Assembly (NCBI GenBank): GCA_001600355.1
Contig: BCJU01000003.1
Coordinates: 3,101,746 to 3,165,745, forward strand
DNA from: Meira nashicola
Lineage: Eukaryota > Basidiomycota > Exobasidiomycetes > Exobasidiales > Brachybasidiaceae
Reading direction: 5' to 3'
Length of the DNA stretch: 64,000 bases
In this document: positions 41,617 through 61,763 of the stretch, piece after piece
How positions within the stretch are numbered: the first letter of the stretch is position 1
Layout: the number at the start of each line of letters is the position of its first letter
The notes under the pieces: generated by a model
Told to the model about the DNA's origin: nothing
Databases searched by the model: none
What the model saw: only the letters and a program-made list of their open reading frames with translations
Made by a program: the position numbers and the translations under genes

Positions 41617-43338
41617 ATGTCATCGATTGATGTGGAAAAGATGCCATTGACGCCTATTCGTCGTCATAGGTTCTCACTTCGAAGGATAATCATTTTAATT
41701 TTATCGCTTCTGGTAATGCATAGGATTATTCTTTTATTATTCGATACCAAACCTCCTGCAAAGCAACATATCGAATTTCAAGCTGATAAAGGATACGGAG
41801 AAATGTACAAATTATCTTGGCAATCATTATCTCAAGCTCTCAATTCTGCCAAACCAAAAATTGCAACTGTTGGAGATTTTAAGCAATCACCTGGAATTTC
41901 AATAGAATCTATTGAGAGTACGACTACCGCAGTTGATGTTCTTAACGTTTCACCTTCTGTGATCTCTTCTATGCAAACATCACATGCTAATTTTGCTAAA
42001 ACACTCAAAGATGGAAATAAGCTTAGCGTGATTTATCAAAGTGGACAACAAGGAATCGTTGTAACTGCAACTCTTCATGAATTACCACAATTATTAATCT
42101 CTTTAAGACTTTTACGCAGAACAAGATCTTCTTTGCCAGTTGAAATTTTCCTTTTAACACAAGATGATTATGATGCCAAATTATGTCGTGAAATTTTCCC
42201 TAAATTGGACGCTCATTGTTCAATTTTAGAAGAACATCTTGACAGTAGCCCTTTACCTATAATGCCTCAAAGTCGTAACGAAAGAAGGATTCAAGCACAA
42301 GAACCACTTAATAAATTATTGGCAATATTCTTTTCGCGATTCGAGGATATCTTATTACTAGATCCTTCTACTTTGGTTTACAATAATCCCGATATTATGC
42401 TAAAAGAAGAACCTTTCTTGTCTACCGGTCTTTTGATTTGGCCTGATTTTTGGGCTTCAACTGTTTCACCTAAATTGTTCCAAATTCAAAATGCTCCTCA
42501 AGTTAAACGTGTTCGTCGTGATAATATCAGAACTGTTGATTTCGGACAAATGGTAATTTCAAAATCCATTCACAGTGCTACTCTTTTGCTTTCAATTTAT
42601 TACACATACTTTGGTCCAAACTTGTACGAATCTTTACAACAACAAAGTTCAGCTGGCGAAAGGGGTTCTCAAGCAATCAAATGTGCAGCAAGATATTTAG
42701 AAACACCTTATTATATGATGAAAAGAGAAGTTGAAGCTGTTGGATTCCCTGATCTTGATTCGGATAATAAAGGATTTTATGGAGTTGCAATGTTACAATC
42801 ATTTGCTTCTGACGATTTTCATAGATTACCAAAAGATCGTCAAAGACCACTTTTCATTCGTCAAAACAATCCAACTTTACATCCAGCTTACATTATGGAT
42901 CGTAATATTGCAGTATTCAAAAAACAATCAAATCTTAAACAAGAAGAAGATGCAAAGATGGAAGTTAAAGAGATCGATTCTGATTCAAACAAAGGCATGC
43001 AAAAAGTTAAAGCAGCAGCAGCAGCAGCACCTGGAGGAGAAATAACCAAGAAAGATCAATCAAATCCATTCGAAATTCCATCAGTTGCTCCTTCAGACCT
43101 AGATCTTGGCTTGCATCATCGTATGTGGGAATGGTTTGGCGGTAGATGGATGTCAAACGGATGGCGTGATCCTGATCCAGAACGTGCGCTATGGGAAGAA
43201 GTTGCAACAGTTGCATGTGTTGATTATACTCATTTCCGCGTTTGGCCTTCTCGTGATGGTAAAGATACAGCTCAAAATTGCGCAAGAATTAATTATCATA
43301 GAGGTCAATTGGGATGGAAAGAATTCTTTGTTCTTTGA
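41617..43338 (+). CDS. MNN1-family (GT71) alpha-mannosyltransferase, type II Golgi membrane protein
   Basis: A 573-residue type II membrane protein: a basic cytosolic N-terminus (RRHRFSLRR), one membrane helix at about residues 25-41, a stem, and a lumenal catalytic domain from about 140. The core GIVVTATLHELPQLLISLRLLRRTRSSLPVEIFLL and the later LSTGLLIWPDFWAST match the Mnn1-type alpha-1,3-mannosyltransferase domain, which extends N- or O-linked mannan in the Golgi. The place where the family normally has an Asp-x-Asp metal site reads LLLDPSTLVYNNPD (Asp249-Pro-Ser), so the second Asp is missing, and the neighbouring Asp at NPD may not replace it. An Ala run (residues 468-473) and a Lys/Glu-rich insert lie near the C-terminus. 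It converges on an OCH1-type gene, a sensible functional neighbour. Confidence 0.85.
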   Translation: MSSIDVEKMPLTPIRRHRFSLRRIIILILSLLVMHRIILLLFDTKPPAKQHIEFQADKGYGEMYKLSWQSLSQALNSAKPKIATVGDFKQSPGISIESIESTTTAVDVLNVSPSVISSMQTSHANFAKTLKDGNKLSVIYQSGQQGIVVTATLHELPQLLISLRLLRRTRSSLPVEIFLLTQDDYDAKLCREIFPKLDAHCSILEEHLDSSPLPIMPQSRNERRIQAQEPLNKLLAIFFSRFEDILLLDPSTLVYNNPDIMLKEEPFLSTGLLIWPDFWASTVSPKLFQIQNAPQVKRVRRDNIRTVDFGQMVISKSIHSATLLLSIYYTYFGPNLYESLQQQSSAGERGSQAIKCAARYLETPYYMMKREVEAVGFPDLDSDNKGFYGVAMLQSFASDDFHRLPKDRQRPLFIRQNNPTLHPAYIMDRNIAVFKKQSNLKQEEDAKMEVKEIDSDSNKGMQKVKAAAAAAPGGEITKKDQSNPFEIPSVAPSDLDLGLHHRMWEWFGGRWMSNGWRDPDPERALWEEVATVACVDYTHFRVWPSRDGKDTAQNCARINYHRGQLGWKEFFVL

Positions 43339-43687
43339 TTAATCCTCTCGCATCCACCTTGTAAAAATATCATTCTTTCATACCCTGCACTATAAGCACT
43401 CTTTCCCTGGACCCCTTCTTTCTTTTATTCTGACCTGTTACCATACTCATTCATCAACATAATAGACAAATCAATGATAATAATTGCACATTACTCTCTC
43501 CTTAAAGATTGCGTTTGAGCGAATGATCTTCGTTTGTTTTCTCATTATTCACGAACGCACTCGTTTGCAGACAAAATGTATAAACTGGTAACAATGAATC
43601 CATTATGTGTTGATGCTATAGAAACTATGAATGCGAATGCTGTTTGTAAAAATGATGGATGCAATGAGAAAATACAAGGTAAAAAAA
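43339..43687. other. Convergent 3' spacer
   Basis: 349 bp between the stops of the two mannosyltransferase genes, CT rich on the left and AT rich on the right. A short frame at 43534-43740 overlaps the stop region of the neighbouring gene and I do not call it. Confidence 0.35.
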
Positions 43688-45523
43688 TTATGCGGCATTG
43701 TCACTATCCTGTCTCCAACTACCGGAGAAATGATGATTGACCATTGCTTGAGGATGAGTGATATCACCTACAACAGCCATCGCTCCACGATCTAAACCTT
43801 TCCATCTTTGCCAATCAGGCTTCCAAAAAGGTGCAAAACCGGTTATAGGCAAAATTGCAATTTCACCAATACGTGTTGCAGTTTGAATGTTGTGCAATTG
43901 ACTCCAATGAATACCATAACGTGCTTGTAAATAACTGAAAACAGCATCACTAAAAGCTCCAGGACCAGTAGCTTCGATCAAACTCATCTTTCCTCCTCTT
44001 TCTTTATCGAATGGATCGACGGTCAAAAGTTTTCGTAATTGATCCCACAATTCTTGATCTTCTAAATGTTTAATTCTTTCTTTTAATGTAGAGTCTGAAT
44101 TGGTCAATTTACCCAAAAGATCAGCTGCTTTTGCTTTTCGTTCGGAATCCCAATCTTTTACTACGTTCATCGATTCGACAACACGTCTGATCGAATCAAG
44201 ATAAATTGGATGACCAGGAGAACCAGACATTGTCCATTGAACGATTTGAACGGGTCTTGGCCAAAATGTTTCCCAACCAGTCACATCTGGTACATCTACT
44301 TCAATGCCGACAACAACTTGAGGAGGTGCATAAGCAAGCTCTTTTGTTACTTCATCACCCATATCCCAAGTTACTGCATCAGCTGAACCCCAAACGTCTA
44401 CAGGTTTCAAACAATCTGTATCTGTATCACTGTAATAACCACCTTCTAAAAAGATGACCAAATAACGCCAAAAATCGGCTTTTAGAACTACTCTTTCCAT
44501 GCCATCCCAAACTTTTTTCACCAAGCTACCGCCAAAATGTTGTTTGGACCAACTTTCTAGCAAAGAATCATCAAAGAAGTTATAACTTGCTCTTGGATTT
44601 TGATCTTGAAAAGAGTTTCGTATTGTGGGAATATCCTTTCCTGTTTGCCATATTTGTGCAGGTATTCCGTGATTTGCAAGACTTTTGTCATGACGACGAC
44701 GAGGACTACGTGCACGTACAGATTCGACGGCCCAAGAAGCAAGTTGTTTTGGGAAAGCTTGTTTGCTAAATGCAACAAGTTTAGCTTCATATTCAGGCCA
44801 TGTTTTTGCCGTTAGCTTGTACATCTTGTCTTGAAATTCAGGGTAGTTTTGTACCGGATGAGGTTTACTGTTTGAGATGGATTTTGGCTTTCCATCTTTG
44901 AACAAAGCAGGACGCGGGATAACATCTGTCATTACTCTTGCATGATCTACAACCCAGCCTGAACCTTTTCGTAAATAAGATTTGCGAACGGTATAAGGAG
45001 TTGGAGGAGCTCCTTCTGCCTCCAGACTTTCCCTTTGAGTAGGAATCAAGTATACGATCAAACAAACAATCAAAATGATCAAGAGACCTAAATTCCTTTG
45101 CTCTGTTGAAGGTGTTTTGATCGATTTACGCAGAGAAGCGGTAGGTCTACTCGATTGCGTAACTGGATTTGACAAACTCATCCCCCTCTTCTTCCGCAAC
45201 GACAACATCGGCATTGCCATCATCTTGTCTGCTTCAATTTGTGAGCTGGTGGATTTGCCGGTAGTATGACGAGAAGAGAGTAAAGAATTATTTTGACTTT
45301 TGGAGGAAGATGAACTTTCCGTTTCACCTTTATCGTTTTCGAATATGTTGACACTTGTTGTTGCTTGATTACTCCTTCTTGGTGAAGAAAGAGGAGGTGG
45401 AGTTGAGAGTAAAGAAGTTGATGAATGAGAAGGAGATGGAAATCGTCCTTGTAAATAAGGCGAATCTAACCTATCCGGAGTGGATGGCCCCGTCAAAGGA
45501 GGCGTATGCAATTCTTTCGTCAT
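43688..45523 (-). CDS. OCH1/HOC1-type alpha-1,6-mannosyltransferase (GT32)
   Basis: A 611-residue type II Golgi glycosyltransferase. I start at the ATG of MTKELHTPP (45521-45523); an in-frame ATG at 45616 would add 31 residues containing a weak hydrophobic stretch, but the real membrane anchor is the helix at about residues 144-161 (GLLIILIVCLIVYLI), after a long Ser/Pro-rich cytosolic tail. The catalytic domain starts with IPAQIWQTGKDIPTIRN, and the metal site is FLEGGYYSDTDTDCLKPVDVW (DTD at about 366-368), as in Och1, which adds the first alpha-1,6-mannose of the N-glycan outer chain. The C-terminus ends HFSGSWRQ, a typical family ending. The neighbouring GT71 gene could act later on the same glycans. 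A Hoc1-like or other GT32 paralogue role cannot be excluded. Confidence 0.88.
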   Translation of the reverse strand: MTKELHTPPLTGPSTPDRLDSPYLQGRFPSPSHSSTSLLSTPPPLSSPRRSNQATTSVNIFENDKGETESSSSSKSQNNSLLSSRHTTGKSTSSQIEADKMMAMPMLSLRKKRGMSLSNPVTQSSRPTASLRKSIKTPSTEQRNLGLLIILIVCLIVYLIPTQRESLEAEGAPPTPYTVRKSYLRKGSGWVVDHARVMTDVIPRPALFKDGKPKSISNSKPHPVQNYPEFQDKMYKLTAKTWPEYEAKLVAFSKQAFPKQLASWAVESVRARSPRRRHDKSLANHGIPAQIWQTGKDIPTIRNSFQDQNPRASYNFFDDSLLESWSKQHFGGSLVKKVWDGMERVVLKADFWRYLVIFLEGGYYSDTDTDCLKPVDVWGSADAVTWDMGDEVTKELAYAPPQVVVGIEVDVPDVTGWETFWPRPVQIVQWTMSGSPGHPIYLDSIRRVVESMNVVKDWDSERKAKAADLLGKLTNSDSTLKERIKHLEDQELWDQLRKLLTVDPFDKERGGKMSLIEATGPGAFSDAVFSYLQARYGIHWSQLHNIQTATRIGEIAILPITGFAPFWKPDWQRWKGLDRGAMAVVGDITHPQAMVNHHFSGSWRQDSDNAA

Positions 45524-47944: not shown

Positions 47945-48886
47945 ATGTTAACAATTCGATCTCTCGCTTTAGTCTTTTTGGCTTTAAGCGCAACATCCCT
48001 TTCATTGGCTAATCCCGAAAAACCATATGCACCCGACCTTTATGACCGTGATTCATTAGATGGCGAAATTAACAACCTAAAATCCAACTTTGTCAAACGT
48101 TTAACACCTTCCGATTCAGCTAAACCTTATTCACCTGATCTTTACTTTCGATCTGCATTAGAAGAAGATGAATCAACATTTCCAACAAGATCCGCTCCAG
48201 AAACATTTATCACACAAATAAATAAACGTTCACCTTCGTTAGTTTGTAAACGTGATTCAGATTGCGGTGGTGCTCATTATTGCTCAAGTGGAAGTTGTTT
48301 TATGCGTAAAGCTAAGCGTGCTTTATGTAGCCGTGATTCAATGTGCAATTCTGGCTTTTGTGGTTCGCAAGGAGCATGTTTGGAAAAGCGTTCTTTGGGA
48401 AGTACATGTGCAGATAGTACAAATGCATGCTCTGATGATTTATTTTGTTCGAGCGTTGATAAGAAATGCAAACAAAGACGAGGAGTGGAAGAAGCATGCA
48501 GATTCTCACAAGGTTGTCAAGAAGGTTTAACATGCCTAAACTATAAATGTTCTAAATCCTTAAAATCAAATAAAACATCTTCAAACAATGACGATGAAGG
48601 TGAAGATTTCATTTCATCATTACAAAGCAAATTGAACGATTTAAAGGAAAGCAAAAAGAATCTATGGAAACCTTCACCAAGCGGTTCACCTCACAAACCA
48701 ATTTGGATTGGAAAAAGATCCGAAAATGATCAATCCGATCATGAAAGCAATCCTATTTCTGATTTCTTAGAACATTTAGAAGAACAAAAACATCACTGGA
48801 AGCCAAGTCCAAGCGGTCATCATCATAATCCAATCTTTTTACAAAGAGATGTCAACGAACCATCTCAACCTGCTCCTTCTCGTTGA
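47945..48886 (+). CDS. Secreted Kex2-processed repeat and cysteine-module precursor 1
   Basis: A 313-residue secretory precursor, family unknown to me. Signal peptide 1-22. Two copies of a peptide follow: EKPYAPDLYDRDSLDGE (25-41) and AKPYSPDLYFRSALEED (59-75), each ending at a dibasic Kex2-like site (KR 51-52, KR 94-95); KR 102-103 is a third. Residues 101-202 hold 16 cysteines in four modules spaced C-x5-C-x5-C-x4-C, C-x5-C-x4-C-x5-C, C-x6-C-x5-C-x6-C and C-x5-C-x5-C-x4-C. After an acidic spacer, a second repeat pair appears: WKPSPSGSPHKPIWIGKR (241-258) and WKPSPSGHHHNPIFLQR (285-301). No GPI signal or membrane helix. A paralogue lies 1.7 kb downstream on the same strand. The architecture suggests release of small peptides plus a Cys-rich protein; activity (signal, hydrophobin-like, effector) is unknown. 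Confidence 0.9.
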   Translation: MLTIRSLALVFLALSATSLSLANPEKPYAPDLYDRDSLDGEINNLKSNFVKRLTPSDSAKPYSPDLYFRSALEEDESTFPTRSAPETFITQINKRSPSLVCKRDSDCGGAHYCSSGSCFMRKAKRALCSRDSMCNSGFCGSQGACLEKRSLGSTCADSTNACSDDLFCSSVDKKCKQRRGVEEACRFSQGCQEGLTCLNYKCSKSLKSNKTSSNNDDEGEDFISSLQSKLNDLKESKKNLWKPSPSGSPHKPIWIGKRSENDQSDHESNPISDFLEHLEEQKHHWKPSPSGHHHNPIFLQRDVNEPSQPAPSR

Positions 48887-50559
48887 GAGAATTAAACTCT
48901 TCTATAAATATAATTATATTTTCGTTCTAATACCCGACATCAACTAGTGCATTCCTTCATTTGCTCGACATATAAAAAGTTTACTCAAATCATTCACATT
49001 CATTATTTTATATATCTTCGTCTTCTTTCTTGTATACAATTTTGCATAATCTCTTGTTTTCTGTTTTGTCATGGCAAATTTGACCAGATTCAAGCTTCTT
49101 TTTTTTTTCTTTTTTCTATCCCTTTCATGTAATTACTTTTCTGCTTATCTTTTGAATATGATTACAATTTAACTTAACAGGGTGTATCTCAAAAGGTCAC
49201 CCACGTGCAAAATTGAAGAGAAGAAAGGACATTTCGGTACAATGGTCAATTCGGAATCGAATTTTTAATAACTCGGCAAACATCCGAGACAATACCAATA
49301 ATATGATCTGGACAATATGTTTCAAACAATAAAAATTGAAAATAAAAATTGTGAAACACGGTCTTCACGCGAAGGCAGGCGCCGGATAGCCTTGTTCGGA
49401 CATGTAAGCAAGTCGCACGCCACAAACAAGCAAGCCTGATTTACCAAGAAAAATGGCACATATCCTTCGAACGTTGTCGGATATCCTTTGGCTTCGGCTT
49501 ATCATTGTTTTCTGAGCTCGAGTGCCCAAAATTCGAAAGAATAAAAACAATCGCGTCAACACGGCTTAAGTGGCTGTCGAATTTGAAACCTCTTTTCTTT
49601 CCCTTTTTTTTTGTTTGCTGCAACGCGTACCTAATAATGCCTTGCATGATTCCCGACCTTCGAAGAAACAAACAAATCGATCTGAAACAGAATCTTTGTT
49701 CATCATGCTGCAGGCACTTTAACCGTTTATCATTGTGTTTGTAATTAGCGCGTCGGCAAGGAAGTACTCTTAAAGCTTGCCTATACGGCAAAACCGGGAA
49801 GGGAACATCACCATACATGAGAAAGAAAGAGAAGAAAGATTCTTATGCAGATCAATCTGTACTTTAAATTAAAACACAGATTAAATGGCAATTAGTTTGA
49901 AAAGAACAGTCTCTTGTTTGTTTTTTCGCATAAAAAAAGAAGTGAAACAAACAAATACACCCGAAACACCTAACAAACACAGTAAAGTAAAACCTCTTGG
50001 CTATTTTATTGTTTGTTCACTGATATTTGTACGCTAAACAATGCATATAACGGGAAGACTCATACATCATTTTACCAGCCTCAGAAAGCATAACTAGGCA
50101 CATTCACCCGCCTTTTAGCATGAATTTTAGTTCTTCTTTTAAGGAACATGGAATAATTTCATTATGGTCTTCATTTGACCCCTTTTCTACCCATGTACAT
50201 ATGTAAAAAAAAGTATCTGTCCGGGCAAACTTTCTTGATAGATGTTTGATCGTGGCTGCACTTCGCTCATGCAAATCATAAACCATACGTACATGTTAAA
50301 ACATGGGAAAAGAATTTCCATCTAGATCTACAGAAAAGTTTCAAACATGTGTACATACAGTCTGCATTTGAACCCCTCTGTGAGAATCAGCAGATGTCTC
50401 GTCAATTGCCGTTTGCTTTCATTTTATTCATTAATCCCTTATAAAGGCTTTGACGTCTCTTCTTAATTTTTATCTTTACCCCCCGTTACCATTCATTTTT
50501 CTCTTTCTCCTCTTCGTCTCGTTGTTGCGATCGATTCCCTAAAAATTAAATCAATCAAA
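48887..50559. promoter_or_regulatory. Spacer between the two secreted precursors
   Basis: About 1.7 kb. Upstream elements shared with the first precursor are AAACAAACAAATACA at 49945-49959 and TTGTTTGTT at 50009-50017, with GTACGCTAA at 50029-50037. Further TTGTTTG/CAAACAA copies are at about 49426, 49610, 49669 and 49914. TATAAA at 50440-50445 lies about 115 bp before the second precursor's ATG, followed by a C/T-rich leader. No gene is supported. Confidence 0.4.
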
Positions 50560-51384
50560 ATGGTTTCCGTTCGTTTCGCTTCTGTCATCTTTTTGGCAGC
50601 TTTTATGGCCGCCTCTACAGTTCAAGGTGCTTCAATGAGCAACAAACCTTACAGTCCCGACTTGTATTCCCGTGATTCTTTGATGGCAGAATCAGATGCA
50701 ACACCTTCTTTCGGCATGATGAAACGTGTTCAAGCTGCAAAACCATATGCACCTAACCTTTTCTCTAGACAATCTTTGGAAAGTGAAGAAGATGATGTTG
50801 TTGAAGAAGATGATGAAGTTGTAGAAGAAAGAAGATCAACAGCCGTCAAACGTTCAATCTCTCCTGCAGCCAAAGCAACATGGAGCCTTTTCAAACGTGC
50901 TACTGAAGAATCCGAAGAAGAATTACACTCACGTGGTTTAGTAGATGATGCTCAAATCGAAGCCCGTGGTCGTTGTGATAACGATTCCAACTGTGATTCA
51001 AACCAATACTGTAGCTCAACACGTCACAAATGCTACAGAAAGATCCACGATTACAACCGATGCAGTCGTGACGCAGCTTGTGGTTCAGGTTATTGCTGTG
51101 AATCTGACAGCCTTTGCAAGCCACAAAGAGAAAACGGTGACAAATGTCATGGAAATGATAATGCATGCGGAAGTGGATATTGCTCCGTAGTTTCAAACAA
51201 ATGTCGTGAACCAGCACAAAAAGGTGACAGTTGCCGAGTTGATCAAGGTTGCAAAGGTAACCTTTCTTGCGTAAACGGTACATGCAAGCATTCCGGATCA
51301 AGTCAACCAAGCAAGCCTCATCATCCTCATCATCCCGCTCCTTCAGGTTCAGCTCATGATCGTCGTTCTTTGACACATTTGTAG
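50560..51384 (+). CDS. Secreted Kex2-processed repeat and cysteine-module precursor 2
   Basis: A 274-residue paralogue of the precursor at 47945. Signal peptide 1-23. Repeat peptides NKPYSPDLYSRDSLMAE (28-44) and AKPYAPNLFSRQSLESE (60-76) stand 32 residues apart; dibasic sites are KR 55-56, RR 91-92, KR 97-98 and KR 112-113. An acidic spacer (77-90) follows the second repeat. Residues 139-242 hold 17 cysteines in four modules (C-x5-C-x5-C-x6-C, C-x5-C-x4-C-x6-C with an extra adjacent Cys180, C-x6-C-x4-C-x6-C and C-x5-C-x5-C-x4-C). The C-terminus is His/Pro rich (SKPHHPHHPAPSGSAHDRR) and corresponds loosely to the WKPSPSG repeats of paralogue 1. The repeat peptide and Cys spacing are conserved while the spacers diverge, so the peptide and modules appear to be the selected parts. 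Function is unknown. Confidence 0.9.
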   Translation: MVSVRFASVIFLAAFMAASTVQGASMSNKPYSPDLYSRDSLMAESDATPSFGMMKRVQAAKPYAPNLFSRQSLESEEDDVVEEDDEVVEERRSTAVKRSISPAAKATWSLFKRATEESEEELHSRGLVDDAQIEARGRCDNDSNCDSNQYCSSTRHKCYRKIHDYNRCSRDAACGSGYCCESDSLCKPQRENGDKCHGNDNACGSGYCSVVSNKCREPAQKGDSCRVDQGCKGNLSCVNGTCKHSGSSQPSKPHHPHHPAPSGSAHDRRSLTHL

Positions 51385-52586: not shown

Positions 52587-55292
52587 ATGGCAAGCTCATC
52601 CTATGCTCCAGTGGAAGGAGATAATTCACACGATACGAATGACAATCTATCTCCTCATAGCACCCCACGATTGGGTGAAATGGATTTAGGTCGAATGAGC
52701 TTCTTTGAGAATGGACAACAACGTGCACAAAGTAGATCAGGCACACCTTTATTAAGAGCAAGTAGTCCTGGTGTCACTCAGTCATACGAAGATGACCGAA
52801 GTAGGACACCAGGATCACCTGGATTGAATCAAGCTTTCTCTTCTGCACAATCTTATGCGCCTTTGAGTTACGATTCCAATAGACCTCCTACTCCCGGCAC
52901 TCCTGGAACGCCTGGCAATGATATGTTACGATCTCCATCTTCTCAGCCATGGCTTTTAAGTGCCCATGGCACCGATAGAGGATCTCATAGATTCTCCATC
53001 GCCAGTTCGCATATGCTAGCCAATTCCGATTATGGTAGTCAACATCAATTGATGCGATATTCCGATTCCGGTGCAATTCCTATGCAAGATTACGAAAAGA
53101 GTACAGGTTCTAGGGTTAGTACACCTGGCCCAGGCACACAATATATGCCCGTCAATGCAAGTAACGGAGTATCAAATAGTGAAAAGTATGGACGATTCGG
53201 TCGGTCGCCAATATCACCCAAAAAGAAATGGCGGATATTTGCTGGAGTTGTTGTAGGTTTGATATTACTGGCAATCGTTATCGCTATACCTTTGGTCGTC
53301 GTACATGATCGTCAACACTCCAATGATGCTTCAGTTGTGGGGACAGGACCACATGGTGAAGTATTAACTTCGGGTGGAAATGGCACTGAAATTCGAATGG
53401 AAAATGGTACAACATTCACATATGTAAATAATTTTGGGGGTGAATGGCGAAGTGATCTCAACGATGATGGAGCAAGAGCTCAGAATTATACACCACCTCT
53501 CAGTCAGGACTGGGATTACACGAAAAACGGAATGTTGGGGGTGAATTTAGGAGGATGGTTAGTATTAGAACCTTTTATTGTACCTTCTCTTTTTGAGCCT
53601 TATGAGAACGACAGCTCAAAGTACGTCGTTGATGAATTCACTTTGATGAACCAATGGAATACCGAAGGCGGTCAAGCATTGAAAGAAAAGAATTTACGTC
53701 AACATTACGATACTTTCATCACTGAATACGACTTTATGATGATCGCTGCTGCAGGTTTGAATTGGGTTCGCTTACCCATTGCTTATTGGGCTATAGCCAC
53801 GATGCCAGGAGAACCATTTGTGCAAGGAATATCTTGGGAATACTTTTTGAAGGCGATAAAGTGGGCAAGAAAGTATGGTTTACGTATCGAACTTGATTTA
53901 CATGCTATCCCTGGCTCACAAAACGGTTATAATCATGGTGGTCGATTGGGCGTTTTTAATTTCCTCAATTCGCCTGTCGGAATGGTTTCCGCTCAAAGAG
54001 CATTAGACACGATCAGAGTGATTGCTGAATTTGTTGCTCAACCTGAGATCGCCAAAGTGGTACCCATCTTTGGTGTTTTAAATGAGCCAAATGTTCCTCT
54101 TGGTATTGGTCAAGATAATATTCGAAGATTTTATATCGAAGCTTATTCTCTTATTCGCAATATTACCGGCTTTGGACAAGATCATGGTCCGATGCTAGCA
54201 TTTCATGATGGTTTCATGGGTTTGCCATTTTGGAACGGATTTTTGCAAGGCGGAGATCGAGTTGCGTGGGACTTGCATCCGTATGTCTGTTTCACAAAGC
54301 CATTCAATGATAGACAAAGTTTCATCAATACAGCTTGCAATGGTTGGGCATCAAACACAGAATTAGGATTAACTCAATACGGTGTAACTTTTGCCGGAGA
54401 ATGGTCTTTAGCACCAAATGATTGTGGCTTATTCTTAAACGGTCCTTTCCAAGGAGTTCGTTATGACGGCACATTCTCTGATGGAACATTTACAAAGACG
54501 GGAGATTGTGGACCTTTTGATGATTGGGAATCCTATTCGAATAGTACGAAGCAAACGATGTATCAAGGCGCTATTGCAGCAATGTCTAGCTTTGATAATT
54601 TCTTCTTTTGGACTTGGAAGATTGGAGATAGCTTACGTACAGGTAAGCCAGTTAATCCGAATTGGTCTTATTTGCTTGGATTACAACAAGGATGGATGCC
54701 AAAAGATCCATATAGAGAATCGCAAAACGCTTGTCGTAATTTGCAAGGACAAGGATTGTCCGGCATCACAAAGACGTCAATCACATGGTCTTCCACTTTT
54801 GCTAATTATCAAACGGGTGCCGCTACAACATATACGCCCAATACGGTCTCGTACAGTTGGCCGCCACCATCGATTACCGTTAGTGGTCAAAGTGGAAATG
54901 TGATTGCGGTAACCGCTTTGCCGACTTATACACCTACGGGAACCGTCGTTATTCCTCCAACACCGACTTATTCTCTCACTTTGACGAAAGAAGTACAACC
55001 AACTATCGATCCATGGACACAAGGCGGTAGACAAACGCCTGCATTTACACCAATCGCAGGATGCACTTACTTTGACAGCATTTGGAACAATTATACTTCT
55101 GCTTTACCTGGTTGGCCTTGTGCTGGAAGTGGTGGAGCTTCTAGGCGAAATTTACAACCAATATACGAAATGGATATTTGGGCAATGGACAAAAGAGGCA
55201 GTCCGTTGATAGAAAAACGTGAAGAGAACGTATATCGACGTGATTTAGGCTTCGGTGGCGCAGCTGCTCCCACACCTGCTCCTCGAGTATAA
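52587..55292 (+). CDS. Membrane-anchored exo-1,3-beta-glucanase (GH5, ExgD-like)
   Basis: A 901-residue glucan 1,3-beta-glucosidase that trims or remodels cell-wall beta-glucan from non-reducing ends. It has a disordered cytosolic N-terminus (1-210, rich in Ser and TPG repeats), a single membrane helix at about 217-238 (IFAGVVVGLILLAIVIAIPLVVV) and then the extracellular GH5 barrel from about 310 (MLGVNLGGWLVLEPFI). The acid/base Glu is in FGVLNEPNV (Glu500) and the nucleophile in GEWSLAPNDCG (Glu605); DLHAIPGSQNG is also conserved. A Thr/Pro-rich tail follows, ending with dibasic stretches (MDKRGSPLIEKREENVYRRD). Type II anchoring and this length match the ExgD group of fungal exoglucanases. 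A second beta-1,3-glucanase (GH128) lies 5 kb to the right. Confidence 0.94.
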   Translation: MASSSYAPVEGDNSHDTNDNLSPHSTPRLGEMDLGRMSFFENGQQRAQSRSGTPLLRASSPGVTQSYEDDRSRTPGSPGLNQAFSSAQSYAPLSYDSNRPPTPGTPGTPGNDMLRSPSSQPWLLSAHGTDRGSHRFSIASSHMLANSDYGSQHQLMRYSDSGAIPMQDYEKSTGSRVSTPGPGTQYMPVNASNGVSNSEKYGRFGRSPISPKKKWRIFAGVVVGLILLAIVIAIPLVVVHDRQHSNDASVVGTGPHGEVLTSGGNGTEIRMENGTTFTYVNNFGGEWRSDLNDDGARAQNYTPPLSQDWDYTKNGMLGVNLGGWLVLEPFIVPSLFEPYENDSSKYVVDEFTLMNQWNTEGGQALKEKNLRQHYDTFITEYDFMMIAAAGLNWVRLPIAYWAIATMPGEPFVQGISWEYFLKAIKWARKYGLRIELDLHAIPGSQNGYNHGGRLGVFNFLNSPVGMVSAQRALDTIRVIAEFVAQPEIAKVVPIFGVLNEPNVPLGIGQDNIRRFYIEAYSLIRNITGFGQDHGPMLAFHDGFMGLPFWNGFLQGGDRVAWDLHPYVCFTKPFNDRQSFINTACNGWASNTELGLTQYGVTFAGEWSLAPNDCGLFLNGPFQGVRYDGTFSDGTFTKTGDCGPFDDWESYSNSTKQTMYQGAIAAMSSFDNFFFWTWKIGDSLRTGKPVNPNWSYLLGLQQGWMPKDPYRESQNACRNLQGQGLSGITKTSITWSSTFANYQTGAATTYTPNTVSYSWPPPSITVSGQSGNVIAVTALPTYTPTGTVVIPPTPTYSLTLTKEVQPTIDPWTQGGRQTPAFTPIAGCTYFDSIWNNYTSALPGWPCAGSGGASRRNLQPIYEMDIWAMDKRGSPLIEKREENVYRRDLGFGGAAAPTPAPRV

Positions 55293-55509
55293 AAACAATG
55301 AATGGACACTTTTTTTACAGTTTTACCTCTCTTTTTTTTGTTATTCTGAAACATGTAAACAAACAACTTGCATCTCATCTCTGGATCGGATTTTTACTCT
55401 TTGCAATTATAACAGAATTGTACCTTTATTTATTTCTACTGCGAGAATGAAATTTAGGATACATAAAATATTTTTAGTACAAATGCGCGCGTGGCTTAAC
55501 TTATATAAT

Positions 55510-57234
55510 TCACGATTGATGATGATAAGCTTTTTCTTCATCACCATGTGGATCTGGAACACGATGACCGTCGCGTTGTTTGCGATCAGCTGCTAATGTT
55601 TGAGCGAATTTTGACCTTTCACGAATGGCTGGACCTTTCCAGTAGAATATATAAATTGGAATTGTGACAAAGATTGCTAAACAACCTAAGATTGTACTTG
55701 CCCATTCATAGTGAAGCGTACCGATATTTTCATATAGAGGTGTTGCATAAAGAGCTGCAATACCTGCAAGGAAATCACGAGCCAAAGCATTTCCACCGGT
55801 AGCACTGGCTGAATAAACTCCGTAAGAAGCCACCATATAATCAATCGTTGCCATATAAATTGCATAGTTTGCAATCGCAATTAAAACGGAAAAGATCATT
55901 GGTGCAATCCAATGAACATGTGGAGGACCTAAACTTGTCCATGCGAAACCGAAAAGGCCAATAGTTTCCAATGGAGCTGTCCATAAAAGCCACCAAAGTC
56001 TTGCTTCGGGTAAAAGAGCATCAGGATCTCTTCTTCTTATTTGTCTTTGACTATGAATGCTAGGGAAAAAGCTAAAGAAAGAAATAATATAACCCAAATT
56101 GATTGGAATAAATGCTAATCCGATTTGAATAGTTGAAAAGTTCCATTGTTTAAATACCAAAGTGAAAGATTCGGTAAATGTGAAAATGAGAGCGTCTGAG
56201 AAACCACTTAAAAGTGAAAGTGATAAAACGATTGGTTCACGAACAAACATTTCAAAAGGTCTAATCCAAGTTACACCAATTTCTTTCATACTAAATCGAT
56301 CTTTGCGTAATTCGTTCGGTCCATAAATATTTTCTCCTTCTTTATTTCCTTGTTTTTTGGCAGTCTTTCTACGTCTTTTTGCCTCTCTATCTAAAATCAC
56401 TGTCGAACGTGTTTCAGGAACGAGGAAAAAGTGTAAAATTTGTGTTGTTCCTCCAAAGATTAATTGAGTCCAAAAGATCCAATATAATGGATTTTGTGCT
56501 GCACCTGCTATAAATCCACCTATCAAAGGTCCAATCGATGTACCACCAACAGAAGAAAGAACGATGAAAGCAACAGCGTATTGTTGATCATCTGCATCAA
56601 ACATATCTGCAACCATACCTAAAGTAACACTACCGCCTGCAGTCCATAAACCTCCAAAGAATCGAGCAGCAATTAAAGATTTAAAATTAGGCGAAAGAGC
56701 TGCCCAAATTTGTGTACAATTGACGAGGAATAAAGAAAGTTGTAAGATTGGCCATCTTCCTAACTCTTCTGACCAAGGAGCCCACAATTCTGATCCGAAA
56801 GCATAAGCTACCAAAAATATCATTTGACCAACACGAGCGCCTTGTTCGCTTACACCTGCAAATCTTGAATCTTCCGTTATTAAAGGAACTGCGCTTGGAT
56901 AAACGGAAGTGTTAAAGTTCATACTCATTTGAACGACAAAGATAACGCTTAGAATCATCCATTTCTTCCAAGTTGGATAAGCATATCCAAGTATTTGCGG
57001 TGCCATTTCATCCGTTAATTCAATCTTTCCATCCGATCTTGCCTTTTTAGGTTCTTCTTTACTCGATTCTGTCTTTTGTAATGCTTTCTCATTACCATTA
57101 TCATCTTTAATTTCATTAGATCGATTATTATCTTCTTCTATCGTTGTTTCTGGAGTGCTTAAGTCACTCTGTCTAGCTTGTTCAGCTTTAGCTGAAGAGT
57201 TTTCCCCTTGTTGATTACTAGCATCCACCATCAT
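55510..57234 (-). CDS. MFS drug/solute:proton antiporter (DHA1-type)
   Basis: A 574-residue major facilitator of the plasma membrane. The first about 80 residues are a hydrophilic Glu/Lys/Ser cytosolic tail. Twelve membrane segments can be traced from WMILSVIFVVQMSMNF onwards. The TM2-TM3 loop has PWSEELGRWPILQLSL, in the position of the MFS D-R/K-x-G-R/K motif, and TM5 contains SVGGTSIGPLIGGFIAG, the antiporter-type motif C (G-x-x-x-G-P-x-x-G-G). A charged central loop follows TM6 (ILDREAKRRRKTAKKQG). Substrate is not predictable: relatives include multidrug and polyamine exporters. There is no biosynthetic cluster around it, so a general efflux role is as likely as any. An octamer CGCAGCGC lies about 430 bp upstream. 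Confidence 0.88.
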   Translation of the reverse strand: MMVDASNQQGENSSAKAEQARQSDLSTPETTIEEDNNRSNEIKDDNGNEKALQKTESSKEEPKKARSDGKIELTDEMAPQILGYAYPTWKKWMILSVIFVVQMSMNFNTSVYPSAVPLITEDSRFAGVSEQGARVGQMIFLVAYAFGSELWAPWSEELGRWPILQLSLFLVNCTQIWAALSPNFKSLIAARFFGGLWTAGGSVTLGMVADMFDADDQQYAVAFIVLSSVGGTSIGPLIGGFIAGAAQNPLYWIFWTQLIFGGTTQILHFFLVPETRSTVILDREAKRRRKTAKKQGNKEGENIYGPNELRKDRFSMKEIGVTWIRPFEMFVREPIVLSLSLLSGFSDALIFTFTESFTLVFKQWNFSTIQIGLAFIPINLGYIISFFSFFPSIHSQRQIRRRDPDALLPEARLWWLLWTAPLETIGLFGFAWTSLGPPHVHWIAPMIFSVLIAIANYAIYMATIDYMVASYGVYSASATGGNALARDFLAGIAALYATPLYENIGTLHYEWASTILGCLAIFVTIPIYIFYWKGPAIRERSKFAQTLAADRKQRDGHRVPDPHGDEEKAYHHQS

Positions 57235-57915
57235 TTTTGCTTCAAACGTAAATGCTTATGTCGATAACTGATGATAATCAAACCATGAAGGAAGGAAGCA
57301 AAAACAATTTAACCGTTCAAATTGCTAGTATTTAAAGTGATTAAGTCGCCGATCTCCACTCATTTTGCATACAAAAAGATCACGCTCAAAAATAAAATAA
57401 CTGCTAACCCGAATCAAGTAGATTTGACCCTGAAGAGCTACGTAATCTTGCATCACCTCTTGTTTAACTCGGCGTACACGCACATTTACTGTAGGGCTAG
57501 TGTAGTCTACGCGTCTTCTTCACCGCCGCATATAACGCAACGCTATGCCACTTCTTGCGGTCAATCTAAACCCATCCGCTTTTTCGGTTGCACAACGAAA
57601 ATTTAGTGAAAATACACACGTTTCATGCATCATTCCATTTCGATCGAACGTCTATCATTTAGCGCAGCGCAAAAAATTATCATTGAAGGCGGATGAGAAG
57701 AATAAGATTGATAGCGTGCGCTGCGTTCAAGTACAATGTGGTCAAACTGTCGATGAAATCATAAGATAACCAGATAGGAAAAATCATTTCTACAGGTCGT
57801 GCCTGAACGAAGAGATCAAAGTTATTGAAGATTAAACTCTTTTGTGCCTACTGCACCCTTGATCGACTGTCATGCCTTCCCAACCAATCTGAGTATTACC
57901 CCACATCTCTTTATT
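57235..57915. promoter_or_regulatory. MFS upstream region and ERG9 3' end
   Basis: 681 bp. AGCGCAGCGC at 57661-57670 and GTGCGCTGCG at 57716-57725 carry the octamer CGCAGCGC in opposite orientations; ACGCGT is at 57509-57514. The short frames in this spacer have no protein-like features. Confidence 0.35.
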
Positions 57916-59650
57916 TTAAAGTTCAATCTTTTTGCGTAATGATTGAAGTCCCTGCCAAGAAAGCAAAGATGGTTCTTGATCTGTGATTGAGGCATGACCT
58001 CCAATAAATTCGGTATACTTTTCTCCTAGCCAAAGCGTGAATGGATCTTGTCCTTCTTGGAAAACATACCAAGCAATAATCCAAGATGCAAGAGCAATCA
58101 CTCCCATCACTAAACAGATGAAAATCATAATGATCACAAAGAATTTAATCATTTCCTTTTGTTCGCGTTTATCTTCTTCTTCGCGTTCACTTTGTGTCAT
58201 TGCTGCTCTTCGTGGATCCAACTCTCCGGTTTTGGGTGCTTGTAATAATCCCAATGCCATTGCTTTTGCCCTTGCCGTATTTTGACGTTGATTTGTGTAT
58301 TTTGTCAAGGCTGCTTGACGAACATCTCCTTCCCGTACTTCTGAGCCCGGAGAAATGAAAGAAGGATAATATGTTTCACACCAAACTTCAATCTTGCCCA
58401 ATTCTACAGACCATTTGAGAAAGTTGGGATCAGAAGGATCGAGTTTAGTACGCATCTCTCGTGCAAATGTTAGGAATTGATAAGAAACGTCTCTTGGATT
58501 TACCGCTCTGATGATTAATTGAACAGCTTGAGATTTGCGAATTTTGACATTTCGCTTCAGAACATTTGGATTGTTGAGCATCAAATTGAGCGTCGCGATT
58601 GCCATTACTTGTGGAATCGCACAAAAGTTGAATACGCTTTGATCTCTCAACAAGCTCAAATAATCCAACGCTCTTGTCGCATGTCGAATTGCATCCAATA
58701 ACATCGAATTTAAAACAAACATTGCCCGCTTTCCTTCGGGACCTGCTACCGCTTTAAACTTTCCACTTCCAGGTGAGGTTTCAACGATTCCTTTTTGTGC
58801 AACTTCAGCTTGTGAGTCAAAGTCGGCTCCTGGTTGAGCCCAGCATTCTCGTGGCCAGAAGAATCGTCCTTCGGCACAATCTTCTGCATAATCACGAATG
58901 ATATTTGTCTTCTGCAAAAATAATCCCATATGATTTGACAAGGTTAATTGATCTCCCAACCATGGCCTCTCGATGCCTGACTCTGCGAACAGACGTGAAA
59001 GACCTTCGCCAACAATGCCAGCAACAAAATGACAATAGAGGTCGTAATCTTGCCATTTGTCAACTTTGAGTGGCTCCTTTGAGGATGCCTCGATGTACGA
59101 TGCCATTCCTGCACCCATTTTTGCGGTAATGTCTGAGATTACAGTTTTGTATCTGGTATAGAAGAAATATGTTAGCTGGGATACCTGCAAAATTAGAAAG
59201 CGCATTCACTCACCCTGCGCCTAATCTGTTAAATTCTTCAATCACTGTATCAAACTCGATCAATAATTGACGATCTTTTTCATTCGGTCCGCTTTCGCTG
59301 AAAGTCCATCCGGGTTGCTCTAGACGTTTATAGAAATCAAGCAAAAGTGAAATCTTCCTTTGTGGATCGATTGTCATATCATCTTCAATTGTATCCAATC
59401 CACGTAGGGGCAAGTAAAATAAACAAATTACTCGACTCAATTCTCCATTTAACTCTTTGATCACTGCACTGAAACTACGTGAAGTCAGATCGAGCAATTT
59501 CCAGCATCTTTGCATTGATTCCCTTTCCCAACCAGAATCAGGATTCGTTTTGATATCGTTCAAAGGATCACGCCATACCTTGTATGTGACTAATGCTCGT
59601 AATTCTTGCGGATGTAGCAATGCAAGAGAGACGATATCAACGATTCCCAT
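57916..59650 (-). CDS. ERG9: Squalene synthase (farnesyl-diphosphate farnesyltransferase), two exons
   Basis: Condenses two farnesyl diphosphates to squalene, the first committed step of ergosterol synthesis, on the ER membrane. Exon 1 (59214-59650) and exon 2 (57916-59152) join across a 61-nt GT-AG intron to give about 557 residues, with LGAGYKTVISDIT at the junction. The first Asp-rich site is DTIED (86-90), the second is NIIRDYAEDCAEGRFFWP in exon 2, and CWKLLDLTSRSFSAVI and KMGAGMASYI are also typical. A C-terminal hydrophobic anchor (FFVIIMIFICLVMGVIALASWIIAWYVF) lies near residues 495-525, with an extra lumenal tail. Length is slightly above yeast Erg9 (444) because of a longer linker and tail. 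The product feeds the sterols used by ATG26 at 17.2-21.8 kb. CTGCGCTGCGCC (59764-59775) lies about 115 bp upstream. Confidence 0.96.
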
Positions 59651-60629
59651 ATTGTTCTATTTTGATCTGTTTGCCGAAAAGAAGGGATGGACGAGAAGAA
59701 TTGTGTTCCGTGCTTAGCCCAAGCAATTAATTGATCAACAAGAAAATTAAGACTTCCTTGTGCCTGCGCTGCGCCGCCTTTTCCCTCTTAATTGATGTTG
59801 CACACACTACCACCAGTACAGGGCAGAAACACACAATAAGCATAGGCGGGGGAAATTGAAGGCTTGATTTAGAGTGTAATCGTGCTTCCTTCGTTTGGCA
59901 CAGGCATAATTCTGCGCGCAACCGAGCTTGAGCTGTGCTGGCTTACAGTTGCGTGTGCTTATATAAGTTTTAAAATTGATTTCTGTCATTTATTTTACGC
60001 CTCCTTGCATATACGTACATATGTGCCTGTCATAAATCTTTGCTAGAGCGAAACAGAAGAGTGCGGAGAGCGGAAGCGTACATACATATACTGAAATTGT
60101 CGTCAGTCTGTCTTGAATTGAAGGACGGACGGGGACACGAAACGTCACCACCCTTTTGTTTCTTTTACAATTGGCTCACAAAACGCGAGGGTCAAAGCTT
60201 CAACACGTAACCAAAATTAGACAAAAAATCACGGCGCCGCTTATGAAAAGAAACAAACGCCTTAGCATCCGTGCTCATTTCTGCTGTGCCCCCTAATTTC
60301 AAGCTGAATCGTGAAAGTGATCCTTTTTTCTCTCTCTCTCTCTTTTCATCTACAGCAACCCCGACATCTGCATGACGAAAGACCTCCTATCTTACGTTCA
60401 AGCATTCTCCTCTCCACTCCCTCTCCACCATTGAAACTCTCCTTTTCAAACAATAACAGTCTTTACAACCTTTTCATCTTTGTCGCTTTCAAGCATATAT
60501 TCACGCTCGCGTACGCGCATTCTCTATAATTCTCTTTCTGGTTCAGAGTCGGAAACATCCTCTTTGCCGTAGATTTCGGCAACAGTGAACACAACATCCT
60601 TTCTCGAAAGATTGGTCTTGCAGCAAAAA
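59651..60629. promoter_or_regulatory. Divergent promoter, ERG9 and GH128 genes
   Basis: About 980 bp. On the ERG9 side, GCCTGCGCTGCGCCGCC at 59762-59778 contains GCGCTGCG. On the GH128 side, a CT repeat (TTCTCTCTCTCTCTCTTTT) spans about 60329-60347 and continues as a C/T-rich leader. No sterol element or gene is visible to me. Confidence 0.35.
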
Positions 60630-61763
60630 ATGGTCGCAAGAAAATTCTTGATTTGCCTTGTAGCAATCTTACTTGCCGTTTCAGCAGTGCAAAGTGATGA
60701 TTTAGCGGAGCCTAAAGCAGAAGATGCTATCTCTCAGCTGATGCGAAGAATTCCAACGAATGAAGCCTCTGATCCATCAACAAGTCTTTCTGTTCTGGAA
60801 CGTGAAGATGAAGTGCCGGCAAACGTCCTGATTAAACGTAGACGAAAACATCACCATCGCAAAGGGCACGGTAGAGGTAAAGGTCATGATCACCGCAAGC
60901 CGCATAAAAGCAAAAATAAGCACCATGGTGGAAAGAAACAAGCTTCTCCTGCAACGACTAATAATGATCAAGATGACAATCAATCTAGCAGATCGTCATC
61001 GAAAAAGGCACCTTTGACCCCCAACGGTATCAAAGCGGGCATTGCTGGTGGACAAAGTCTTGATTTCATCAAAGGTGCAATTGGTTGGTATACGGAATGG
61101 ACTGCTGTACCATATGGTCAACCGCCAAAGGGTGTCGCTTTCGCTACGATGTTATGGGGTCTTGGGTGGAAAGATCATGATAATGATTGGCAACGCTTCC
61201 AAGATTTCAAAAAGATCAAACCTGGCACTTACGATTACGTCATTGGTATGAACGAAGCAGATTTTGAAGGCGGTGGTAGTAGCGGTGTAATTCCAACTGA
61301 CAAAGCTGCCGAAGCATGGGAACAGTACATCGCACCACACGGAAGGGCTGGATCTGTGCTTATCTCGCCTTCATGTGCAAAACAAGCCGATGAAAATTGG
61401 ATGGGCCCTTTCCTTAAAAAGGTCAAAACAAAACCAGATGTGGTGAACGTTCACATTTTCAAAAATAAAGCAAGTCAAATCAAAGGAGTTTTGGATCATT
61501 ATGCTCAATATGGCTATCCATTATGGGTCACAGAATTTGCTTGCATCAATTACTCAAATGGGGCACATGACCCTTGCAATCAAAAGGATGCAGAAGAGTT
61601 TGTTCGAGAATCGGTCAAAATTTTAGAAGCTGATGATCGTGTTAAAGCATATGCTTGGTCAGATGCCAACAATGGGCCTGCTTGCAAATTGACTAAAGCT
61701 GGTGGAAAGCAACTTTCCAAAACCGGTCAAACGCTCAAGGCTATGTTCTCCAGCTTTGCCTAG
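60630..61763 (+). CDS. Secreted GH128 beta-1,3-glucanase-like protein with His/Lys-rich linker
   Basis: I choose the ATG at 60630, since MVARKFLICLVAILLAVSAVQS is a clean signal peptide; an in-frame ATG at 60585 adds 15 residues in front. The product is about 377 residues. After a propeptide ending at dibasic sites (MRR and IKRRRK) comes a linker at about 73-105 of His, Lys, Arg and Gly (RRRKHHHRKGHGRG, HDHRKPHKSKNKHHGGKK), then a Ser/Asn/Asp spacer. The catalytic domain from about 137 is the Asl1-like/GH128 fold: IGWYTEWTAVP, MLWGLGW, IGMNEADF (Glu209, likely acid/base) and LWVTEFAC (Glu302, likely nucleophile), ending KAYAWSDANN. The family hydrolyses beta-1,3-glucan. The basic linker may bind wall polymers or metals, or be removed on maturation. 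Confidence 0.87.
   Translation: MVARKFLICLVAILLAVSAVQSDDLAEPKAEDAISQLMRRIPTNEASDPSTSLSVLEREDEVPANVLIKRRRKHHHRKGHGRGKGHDHRKPHKSKNKHHGGKKQASPATTNNDQDDNQSSRSSSKKAPLTPNGIKAGIAGGQSLDFIKGAIGWYTEWTAVPYGQPPKGVAFATMLWGLGWKDHDNDWQRFQDFKKIKPGTYDYVIGMNEADFEGGGSSGVIPTDKAAEAWEQYIAPHGRAGSVLISPSCAKQADENWMGPFLKKVKTKPDVVNVHIFKNKASQIKGVLDHYAQYGYPLWVTEFACINYSNGAHDPCNQKDAEEFVRESVKILEADDRVKAYAWSDANNGPACKLTKAGGKQLSKTGQTLKAMFSSFA

Follow-up and report, generated by a model that had tools for sequence, protein, structure and literature searches.

We analysed a 64 kb window of the Meira nashicola genome, the final stretch of the 3.17 Mb contig BCJU01000003.1 in an assembly of 17.9 Mb, which contains two tandem open reading frames (ORFs), g1 and g2, each open from ATG to stop and intronless. 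Both encode secreted-looking precursors on the forward strand, to which all coordinates given for the two genes refer: g1 (47945..48886, 313 aa) is supported by its ORF, a match to the Pfam family Dickkopf_N and its g1-clade relatives (P0013-P0019 and P0024), and g2 (50560..51384, 274 aa) by its ORF, a Dickkopf_N match and its relatives. A likely signal peptide occupies residues 1-22 of g1 (47945..48010; hydrophobic stretch with S/A at -3/-1) and residues 1-23 of g2 (50560..50628; hydrophobic stretch, with an uncertain cleavage site), both assignments being judged from hydrophobicity and from the small residues around the cleavage site rather than from predictor output. Two copies of a short peptide beginning Lys-Pro-Tyr (KPY) follow in each protein, and then a cysteine array; the original prediction of two copies spaced 32-34 residues apart ahead of 16 or 17 Cys in four modules was confirmed by the ORFs and residue positions.

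In both proteins the peptide fits the consensus KPYxP[DN]L[YF]xRxxL. The motif starts at residues 26 and 60 of g1 (34 apart) and 29 and 61 of g2 (32 apart), and repeat comparison delimited the copies as KPYAPDLYDRDSL (48020..48058) and KPYSPDLYFRSAL (48122..48160) in g1, the second also by its conservation in the g1 clade, and KPYSPDLYSRDSL (50644..50682) and KPYAPNLFSRQSL (50740..50778) in g2; their cores read KPYAPDLYDR and KPYSPDLYFR in g1, and KPYSPDLYSR and KPYAPNLFSR in g2. Within each protein the two copies are identical at 9 of 13 residues, whereas, when each mature protein was shuffled 2000 times by residue, the best internal 13-mer pair shared at most 8, so the repeat does not arise by chance. 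The copies are old rather than recent DNA duplicates, because identical residues often differ in codon: each of the six pairwise comparisons has 7-11 identical residues, of which 3-8 are encoded differently, and for g1 copy 2 against g2 copy 1 the figure is 8 of 10. Across the genome the motif pattern had four matches, all within g1 and g2, against one for a reversed control pattern. Loosening the pattern gave 7 matches versus 14 for its control, which places it near background, and the three extra sites look unrelated: a Gln-Pro-Tyr site in a 43-aa frame, KPYVPDLNELYVP, without LxxR, in a frame of 257 aa that has a hydrophobic stretch further upstream, and KPYPPKL in a long frame. Apart from finding itself, the g2 pro-region matched g1 in a genome search at E 6e-7 and had four further matches, at E 0.29-0.64.

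Three protein searches yielded relatives P0001-P0026, of which P0001 is g2 itself, and 27 proteins were examined in total (g1, g2 and P0002-P0026); the names that the relatives bear in nr go no further than Dickkopf N-terminal, uncharacterised or hypothetical protein. The nearest named relative is Meira miltonrushii (Exobasidiales), with P0003 78% identical to g2 and P0016 67% identical to g1, while Exobasidium rhododendri carries the g2-like protein P0007. P0003 and P0016 each lie on a contig of 1273998 bases, and P0002 and P0014 each on a contig of 119338 bases, from which the tandem g1/g2 pairing seems to be conserved between species. A tree of the Cys array separated 9 g1-like from 15 g2-like proteins with full support (100/100), although weak branches make up 15 of the 23 inner ones and both P0012 and a paralogue on contig C6 sit on long, unsure branches. 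Two KPY copies are present in 21 of the 27 proteins and one in the other 6 (19 and 6 among the 25 relatives); P0010 and P0011 have a decayed second copy, with V-F-A-R persisting at its end. The expectation that peptide and modules are constrained and the spacers diverged held in both groups. In the g1 clade, the P, Y, A, P, L, R and L of copy 1 are invariant in all nine proteins, and mean pairwise identity is 0.81 in KPY columns versus 0.32 in spacers (9 rows; 0 of 20000 permutations as high); for the 16 rows of the g2 group the values are 0.49 and 0.28 (p 0.0011), the former lowered by rows with a lost copy that are gapped or misaligned. An acidic spacer of g2 (50784..50836) proved on DNA repeat analysis to be an imperfect 18/21-base tandem repeat, which fits a freely varying spacer, and the KPY region of g2 is predicted to be disordered (block predicted local distance difference test, pLDDT, 37-46 over residues 21-110).

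Candidate cutting sites surround these peptides, and the dibasic pair originally noted after each copy is there in both proteins. In g1, KR 51-52 (48095..48100) lies between the copies and KR 94-95 (48224..48229; R95 invariant in 9/9 g1-clade proteins) ahead of the Cys array. In g2, KR 55-56 (50722..50727), identified by comparison of two-copy proteins, separates the copies, and RR 91-92 and KR 97-98 (50848..50853; mean pairwise identity 0.76 for K97 and 0.88 for R98 in the 16 g2-group rows) follow copy 2. Among the 21 two-copy proteins, a dibasic occurs between the copies in 18 and [LIV]xxR in the remaining 3 of 3 (chance level not computed), and a dibasic stands between the last KPY copy and the Cys array in 26 of 26 proteins, one of which, P0025, has only part of an array; P0026 had no dibasic within the 35 residues counted after its second copy. 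Moreover, the motif itself ends L[YF]xR, that is LxxR, which has been published as an expanded Kex2 motif (PMC8528282), and its final Arg is retained in 45 of 48 KPY copies. Sites of the form [LIVM]xxR are enriched in the pro-regions (g1, 3 versus 0.75 expected, p 0.02; g2, 7 versus 1.7, p 0.0003), as is strict LxxR in g2 (p 0.0008). The genome contains one kexin-type gene that we found, with Peptidase_S8 and P domains; STE13 (XA/XP) signatures after Kex2 sites, checked by eye, were not consistent. The proposal that Kex2 bounds the peptides thus stood insofar as Kex2-type sites set off conserved peptides, but copy 1 begins 3-5 residues past the likely signal-peptidase site, so Kex2 does not set its N-terminus.

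On this anatomy we consider it probable that g1 and g2 are kexin-processed precursors yielding KPY peptides plus a Cys-rich product. Peptides of this origin could in principle resemble the Rep1 repellents, surface peptides that assemble on hyphae, and Meira belongs to the same subphylum as Ustilago. The Kex2 logic is similar as well (PMC4617103), but the KPY fragments are hydrophilic (grand average of hydropathy -1.35, -0.87, -0.76 and -1.11), unlike the amphipathic 34-55 aa repeats of Rep1, and we regard a repellent role as highly improbable.

The Cys arrays of g1 (48245..48550, 16 Cys) and g2 (50974..51285, 17 Cys) each comprise four 4-Cys modules separated by 10-residue steps. Although the original prediction left this array without a family, Dickkopf_N (PF04706) just passes the Pfam cut-off of 25 bits in both whole proteins (25.4 bits for g1, 27.6 for g2); single stretches in a genome search scored 21.7 and 23 bits, below the cut-off, as did P0007, P0025 and two paralogues described below. 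A family-profile search of PDB matched only Dickkopf-4 chains, weakly, and a single-sequence search with g2 matched only hongotoxin 1 (E 0.54). Structure prediction, which had been suggested as a check, succeeded for one of the two proteins: the g2 block reached pLDDT 87-94 and had colipase- and Dickkopf-like fold matches, while the g1 model was poor (mean pLDDT 50.5). Just upstream of the g2 array, a conserved segment, SEEELHSRGLVDDAQIEARG (50911..50970), is predicted to be helical (residues 121-140 at pLDDT 87-91, with helices at 119-124 and 130-136). From the model, the g2 array is probably of the Dickkopf/colipase-like fold class, although the fold-match lists consist largely of small disulfide-rich toxins and squash trypsin inhibitors and leave room for folds outside them. 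Fungi are not known to have a Wnt pathway. From the Wnt antagonist Dickkopf proper, g1 and g2 differ in that their 16 or 17 Cys form four modules of four; Dickkopf proper has 20 Cys in two cysteine-rich domains (CRDs) with five disulfides each (PMC6078440). The individual modules instead resemble single Dickkopf/colipase subdomains, those of g1 lacking the extra loop pair of the Dickkopf CRD/colipase fold (PDB 5o57, 1lpb and 3s2k). The relative P0012 (251 aa) has five such modules (20 Cys) and one KPY copy, which suggests, at the level of sequence, that modules were gained singly; since all Cys of g1 also fall in 4-Cys modules, the single subdomain looks like the unit.

The two clades differ in the nine-residue linkers between modules, counted with P0012 (five modules), P0025 and P0026 (neither with a full array) left aside. 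Every linker of g1 contains a dibasic, KR 124-125 between modules 1 and 2 (48314..48319; 9/9 g1-clade and 1/15 g2-clade proteins), KR 148-149 between modules 2 and 3 (48386..48391; 9/9 and 6/15) and RR 178-179 between modules 3 and 4 (48476..48481; 9/9 and 0/15). In all, [KR]R occurs in 27 of 27 linkers in the nine g1-clade proteins versus 7 of 45 in the 15 g2-clade proteins, six of the seven in the middle linker. Within the g1 clade these pairs exchange KR for RR and back amid changing neighbours, and shuffles of g1 with Cys fixed gave an expected 0.36 [KR]R linkers, with all three reached in about 0.1% (0.0006 and 0.0014 in two runs). An uncut secreted or wall-bound structural protein, in which the dibasics are merely basic linkers and the KPY motif and the C-terminal PSPSG elements described below serve binding or cross-linking, would accord with the g1-clade dibasics found inside modules as well (9 over 679 residues, versus 28 over 243 in linkers) and with the several glycan-active genes nearby. 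We think it unlikely, however, given that all 27 of the g1-clade linkers retain a dibasic despite exchange between KR and RR, that a lost between-copy dibasic is replaced by [LIV]xxR in 3 of 3, and that inspection by eye revealed no evident glycosylphosphatidylinositol or transmembrane anchor.

Beyond the array, two WKPSPSG cassettes form the strongest internal repeat of g1. The first, WKPSPSGSPHKPIWIGKR (48665..48718), matches the second, WKPSPSGHHHNPIFLQR (48797..48847; delimited by internal repeat comparison), at 10 of 13 residues, a level reached in 0 of 2000 shuffles. A single C-terminal element, PAPSGSAHDRR (51334..51366), is present in g2, with P261, S262, G263 and R269 invariant in 16/16 g2-group rows. 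As seen by eye, a KR-bounded PSPSG copy stands directly in tandem in P0016 and three PSPSG elements occur in P0024, so that both reach three, and a genome-wide search with the g1 tail found, beyond itself, only a match at E 0.475. These cassettes, like the LxxR peptide end, the Dickkopf_N family and the inter-module dibasics of g1, had gone unnoticed in the original prediction. A more far-reaching version of the processing model, which we think less likely than not, takes g1 as a full polyprotein that would give two KPY peptides, four two-disulfide 4-Cys mini-proteins and PSPSG peptides, with the g2 array left uncut and the modules exemplifying the proposed ancestral Dickkopf/colipase subdomain.

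The main rival holds that the KPY region is a disposable pro-domain, needed for folding, sorting or silencing, and that the Cys array is the sole product. Kex2-processed pro-domain (K2PP) effectors such as SnTox3 have an N-terminal disordered pro-domain ending in KR/RR or LxxR and followed by a folded protein (PMC8528282), and the two precursors likewise have an N-terminal region in their first half, predicted to be disordered in g2, that ends in such a site. The dibasic ahead of the array in all 26 proteins favours this view, as does its presence in a paralogue without any KPY motif: on contig C6 (L005:2184-2873), Cys modules are preceded by LDKRHG, with an intron in module 1 as judged by eye. 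A second paralogue, on contig C10 (reverse strand, L019:2317-2784), is a 155-residue frame in which four 4-Cys modules follow a signal-like region after a short linker, again without KPY; such arrays, then, need not have the peptide. Conversely, P0026 (157 aa) has two RPYAPDL[YF]SR copies with KR between them and a different Cys-containing C-terminus, with no Pfam match and no 4-Cys array. A pro-domain alone leaves unexplained both this other C-terminus and the two precise motif copies, which together with the occurrence of Cys arrays elsewhere without such a region set g1 and g2 apart from K2PP effectors. Peptide and array thus look separable, which speaks, though not decisively, for two distinct products rather than a mere pro-domain, and we judge the pro-domain explanation possible but rather doubtful.

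Several observations weigh against release of KPY peptides and of processed modules. Taken by themselves, KR/RR pairs are only modestly enriched (g1 p 0.10, g2 p 0.03), and in g1 strict LxxR falls short of significance (2 versus 0.44 expected, p 0.06). Because conservation extends to motif residues past LxxR, including the Leu three after the Arg, the peptide may not be defined by cleavage at LxxR. The contig that carries P0026 is 984 bases long and this protein is possibly incomplete, and two KPY copies fall short of the repeat rule discussed below. For the array, the nine g1-clade proteins are related and represent one conserved state rather than nine independent events, and the in-module dibasics already counted belong on the same side. 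Folded Cys domains can shield dibasic sites, and the poor g1 model cannot show whether its linker sites are exposed.

Compared with known systems, the precursors share with Kex2-processed repeat proteins (KEPs) a likely signal peptide and conserved peptides flanked by Kex2-type sites (PMC6339444, PMC7329392, PMC9769878), and differ in that KPY occurs twice and is joined to a folded Cys array. Under the published rules a KEP needs three or more repeats lying between Kex2 sites (PMC7329392, PMC6339444), so the assignment of g1 and g2 to this architecture in the original prediction cannot be kept: the KPY copies number two, a count that leaves aside the four dibasic-bounded Cys modules of g1. The nearest architecture is Hum3 of Ustilago maydis, with 17 amphipathic repeats of 31-36 aa, separated by Kex2 sites and followed by a hydrophobin domain (PMC4617103). 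As here, Kex2-separated repeats precede a Cys-containing folded domain in a single secreted precursor, and the architecture therefore has precedent; here, however, the repeats are two short hydrophilic motifs and the domain consists of Dickkopf-type modules. Precursors of dikaritins (ustiloxin type), which are ribosomally synthesized and post-translationally modified peptides, also combine a signal peptide, a Tyr-containing peptide and Kex2 sites (PMC9769878, PMC7329392), but here the peptide is present in two copies. We tentatively set this reading aside, since of the 20 remaining window ORFs with 150 aa or more, the 16 scanned showed no match to UstYa/DUF3328 (for part of them among matches up to E 0.01). 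We likewise rejected the fungus-to-whitefly salivary protein family FTSP, whose report names Meira (PMC10583550) and whose homologues span Ascomycota and oomycetes; no insect-named match was among the g1/g2 protein-search matches listed, though most of these are nameless.

In the literature searched, which did not extend to the supplementary tables of the KEP surveys, the combination of the KPY motif with Dickkopf-type modules was not among the matches listed, and the original statement that no described family combines the two holds to that extent. The sole search by peptide letters, with PYAPDL, listed one unrelated paper. Searches for Dickkopf with smut, effector or fungal terms had no such fungal proteins among the matches listed, where the single rust paper mentions the name in a wheat cultivar, and Exobasidium was absent among the 12 listed in a related search.

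In a Pfam scan of the window ORFs, the g1/g2 pair is flanked by glycan-active genes at 41617-45523 and 52587-61763, including Mannosyl_trans3, a DXD glycosyltransferase, a weak GH5-like match (below cut-off) and a Glyco_hydro_cc protein; this neighbourhood may be without meaning. Elsewhere in the genome, a 542-residue protein (L020:2469-4097) has a weak Dickkopf_N match and an apparent transmembrane stretch, and is possibly a surface protein.

For the kexin-processed precursors that we favour, we infer the following cleavages, product boundaries and site of action from anatomy, conservation and the presence of a kexin-type gene. Signal peptidase would free the N-terminus just ahead of KPY copy 1, and kexin, a Kex2-like protease, would then cut the dibasics in the late secretory pathway and probably also the motif-terminal LxxR, releasing linear peptides, some 10-45 residues long, with KPYxPDLYxR in them. 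The rest of the chain would be the Cys array of four Dickkopf-type 4-Cys subdomains, which in g2 would stay one folded protein with its helical N-terminal segment and in g1 may itself be cut at the linker dibasics into 4-Cys mini-proteins, the C-terminal PSPSG cassettes being set off likewise. The products would most likely act extracellularly; their target could be a host, a neighbouring organism or the producing fungus, and their role host signalling, antagonism or self-signalling.

Should release of the parts occur, this short pair of genes would provide three kinds of product per precursor, namely linear peptides, Cys mini-proteins and tail peptides, and the three-repeat requirement of KEP surveys would by its nature pass over the KPY peptides. 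As sisters, g1 and g2 would allow a cut array to be compared naturally with an uncut one, and their single-subdomain modules, in four or five copies across the family, are relevant to the proposed origin of Dickkopf and colipase domains from one 4-Cys subdomain (PMC6078440). Meira was first obtained from dead mites and afterwards as an endophyte of plants (PMC10583550), and the targets of these products could therefore be the host, mites or microbial neighbours.

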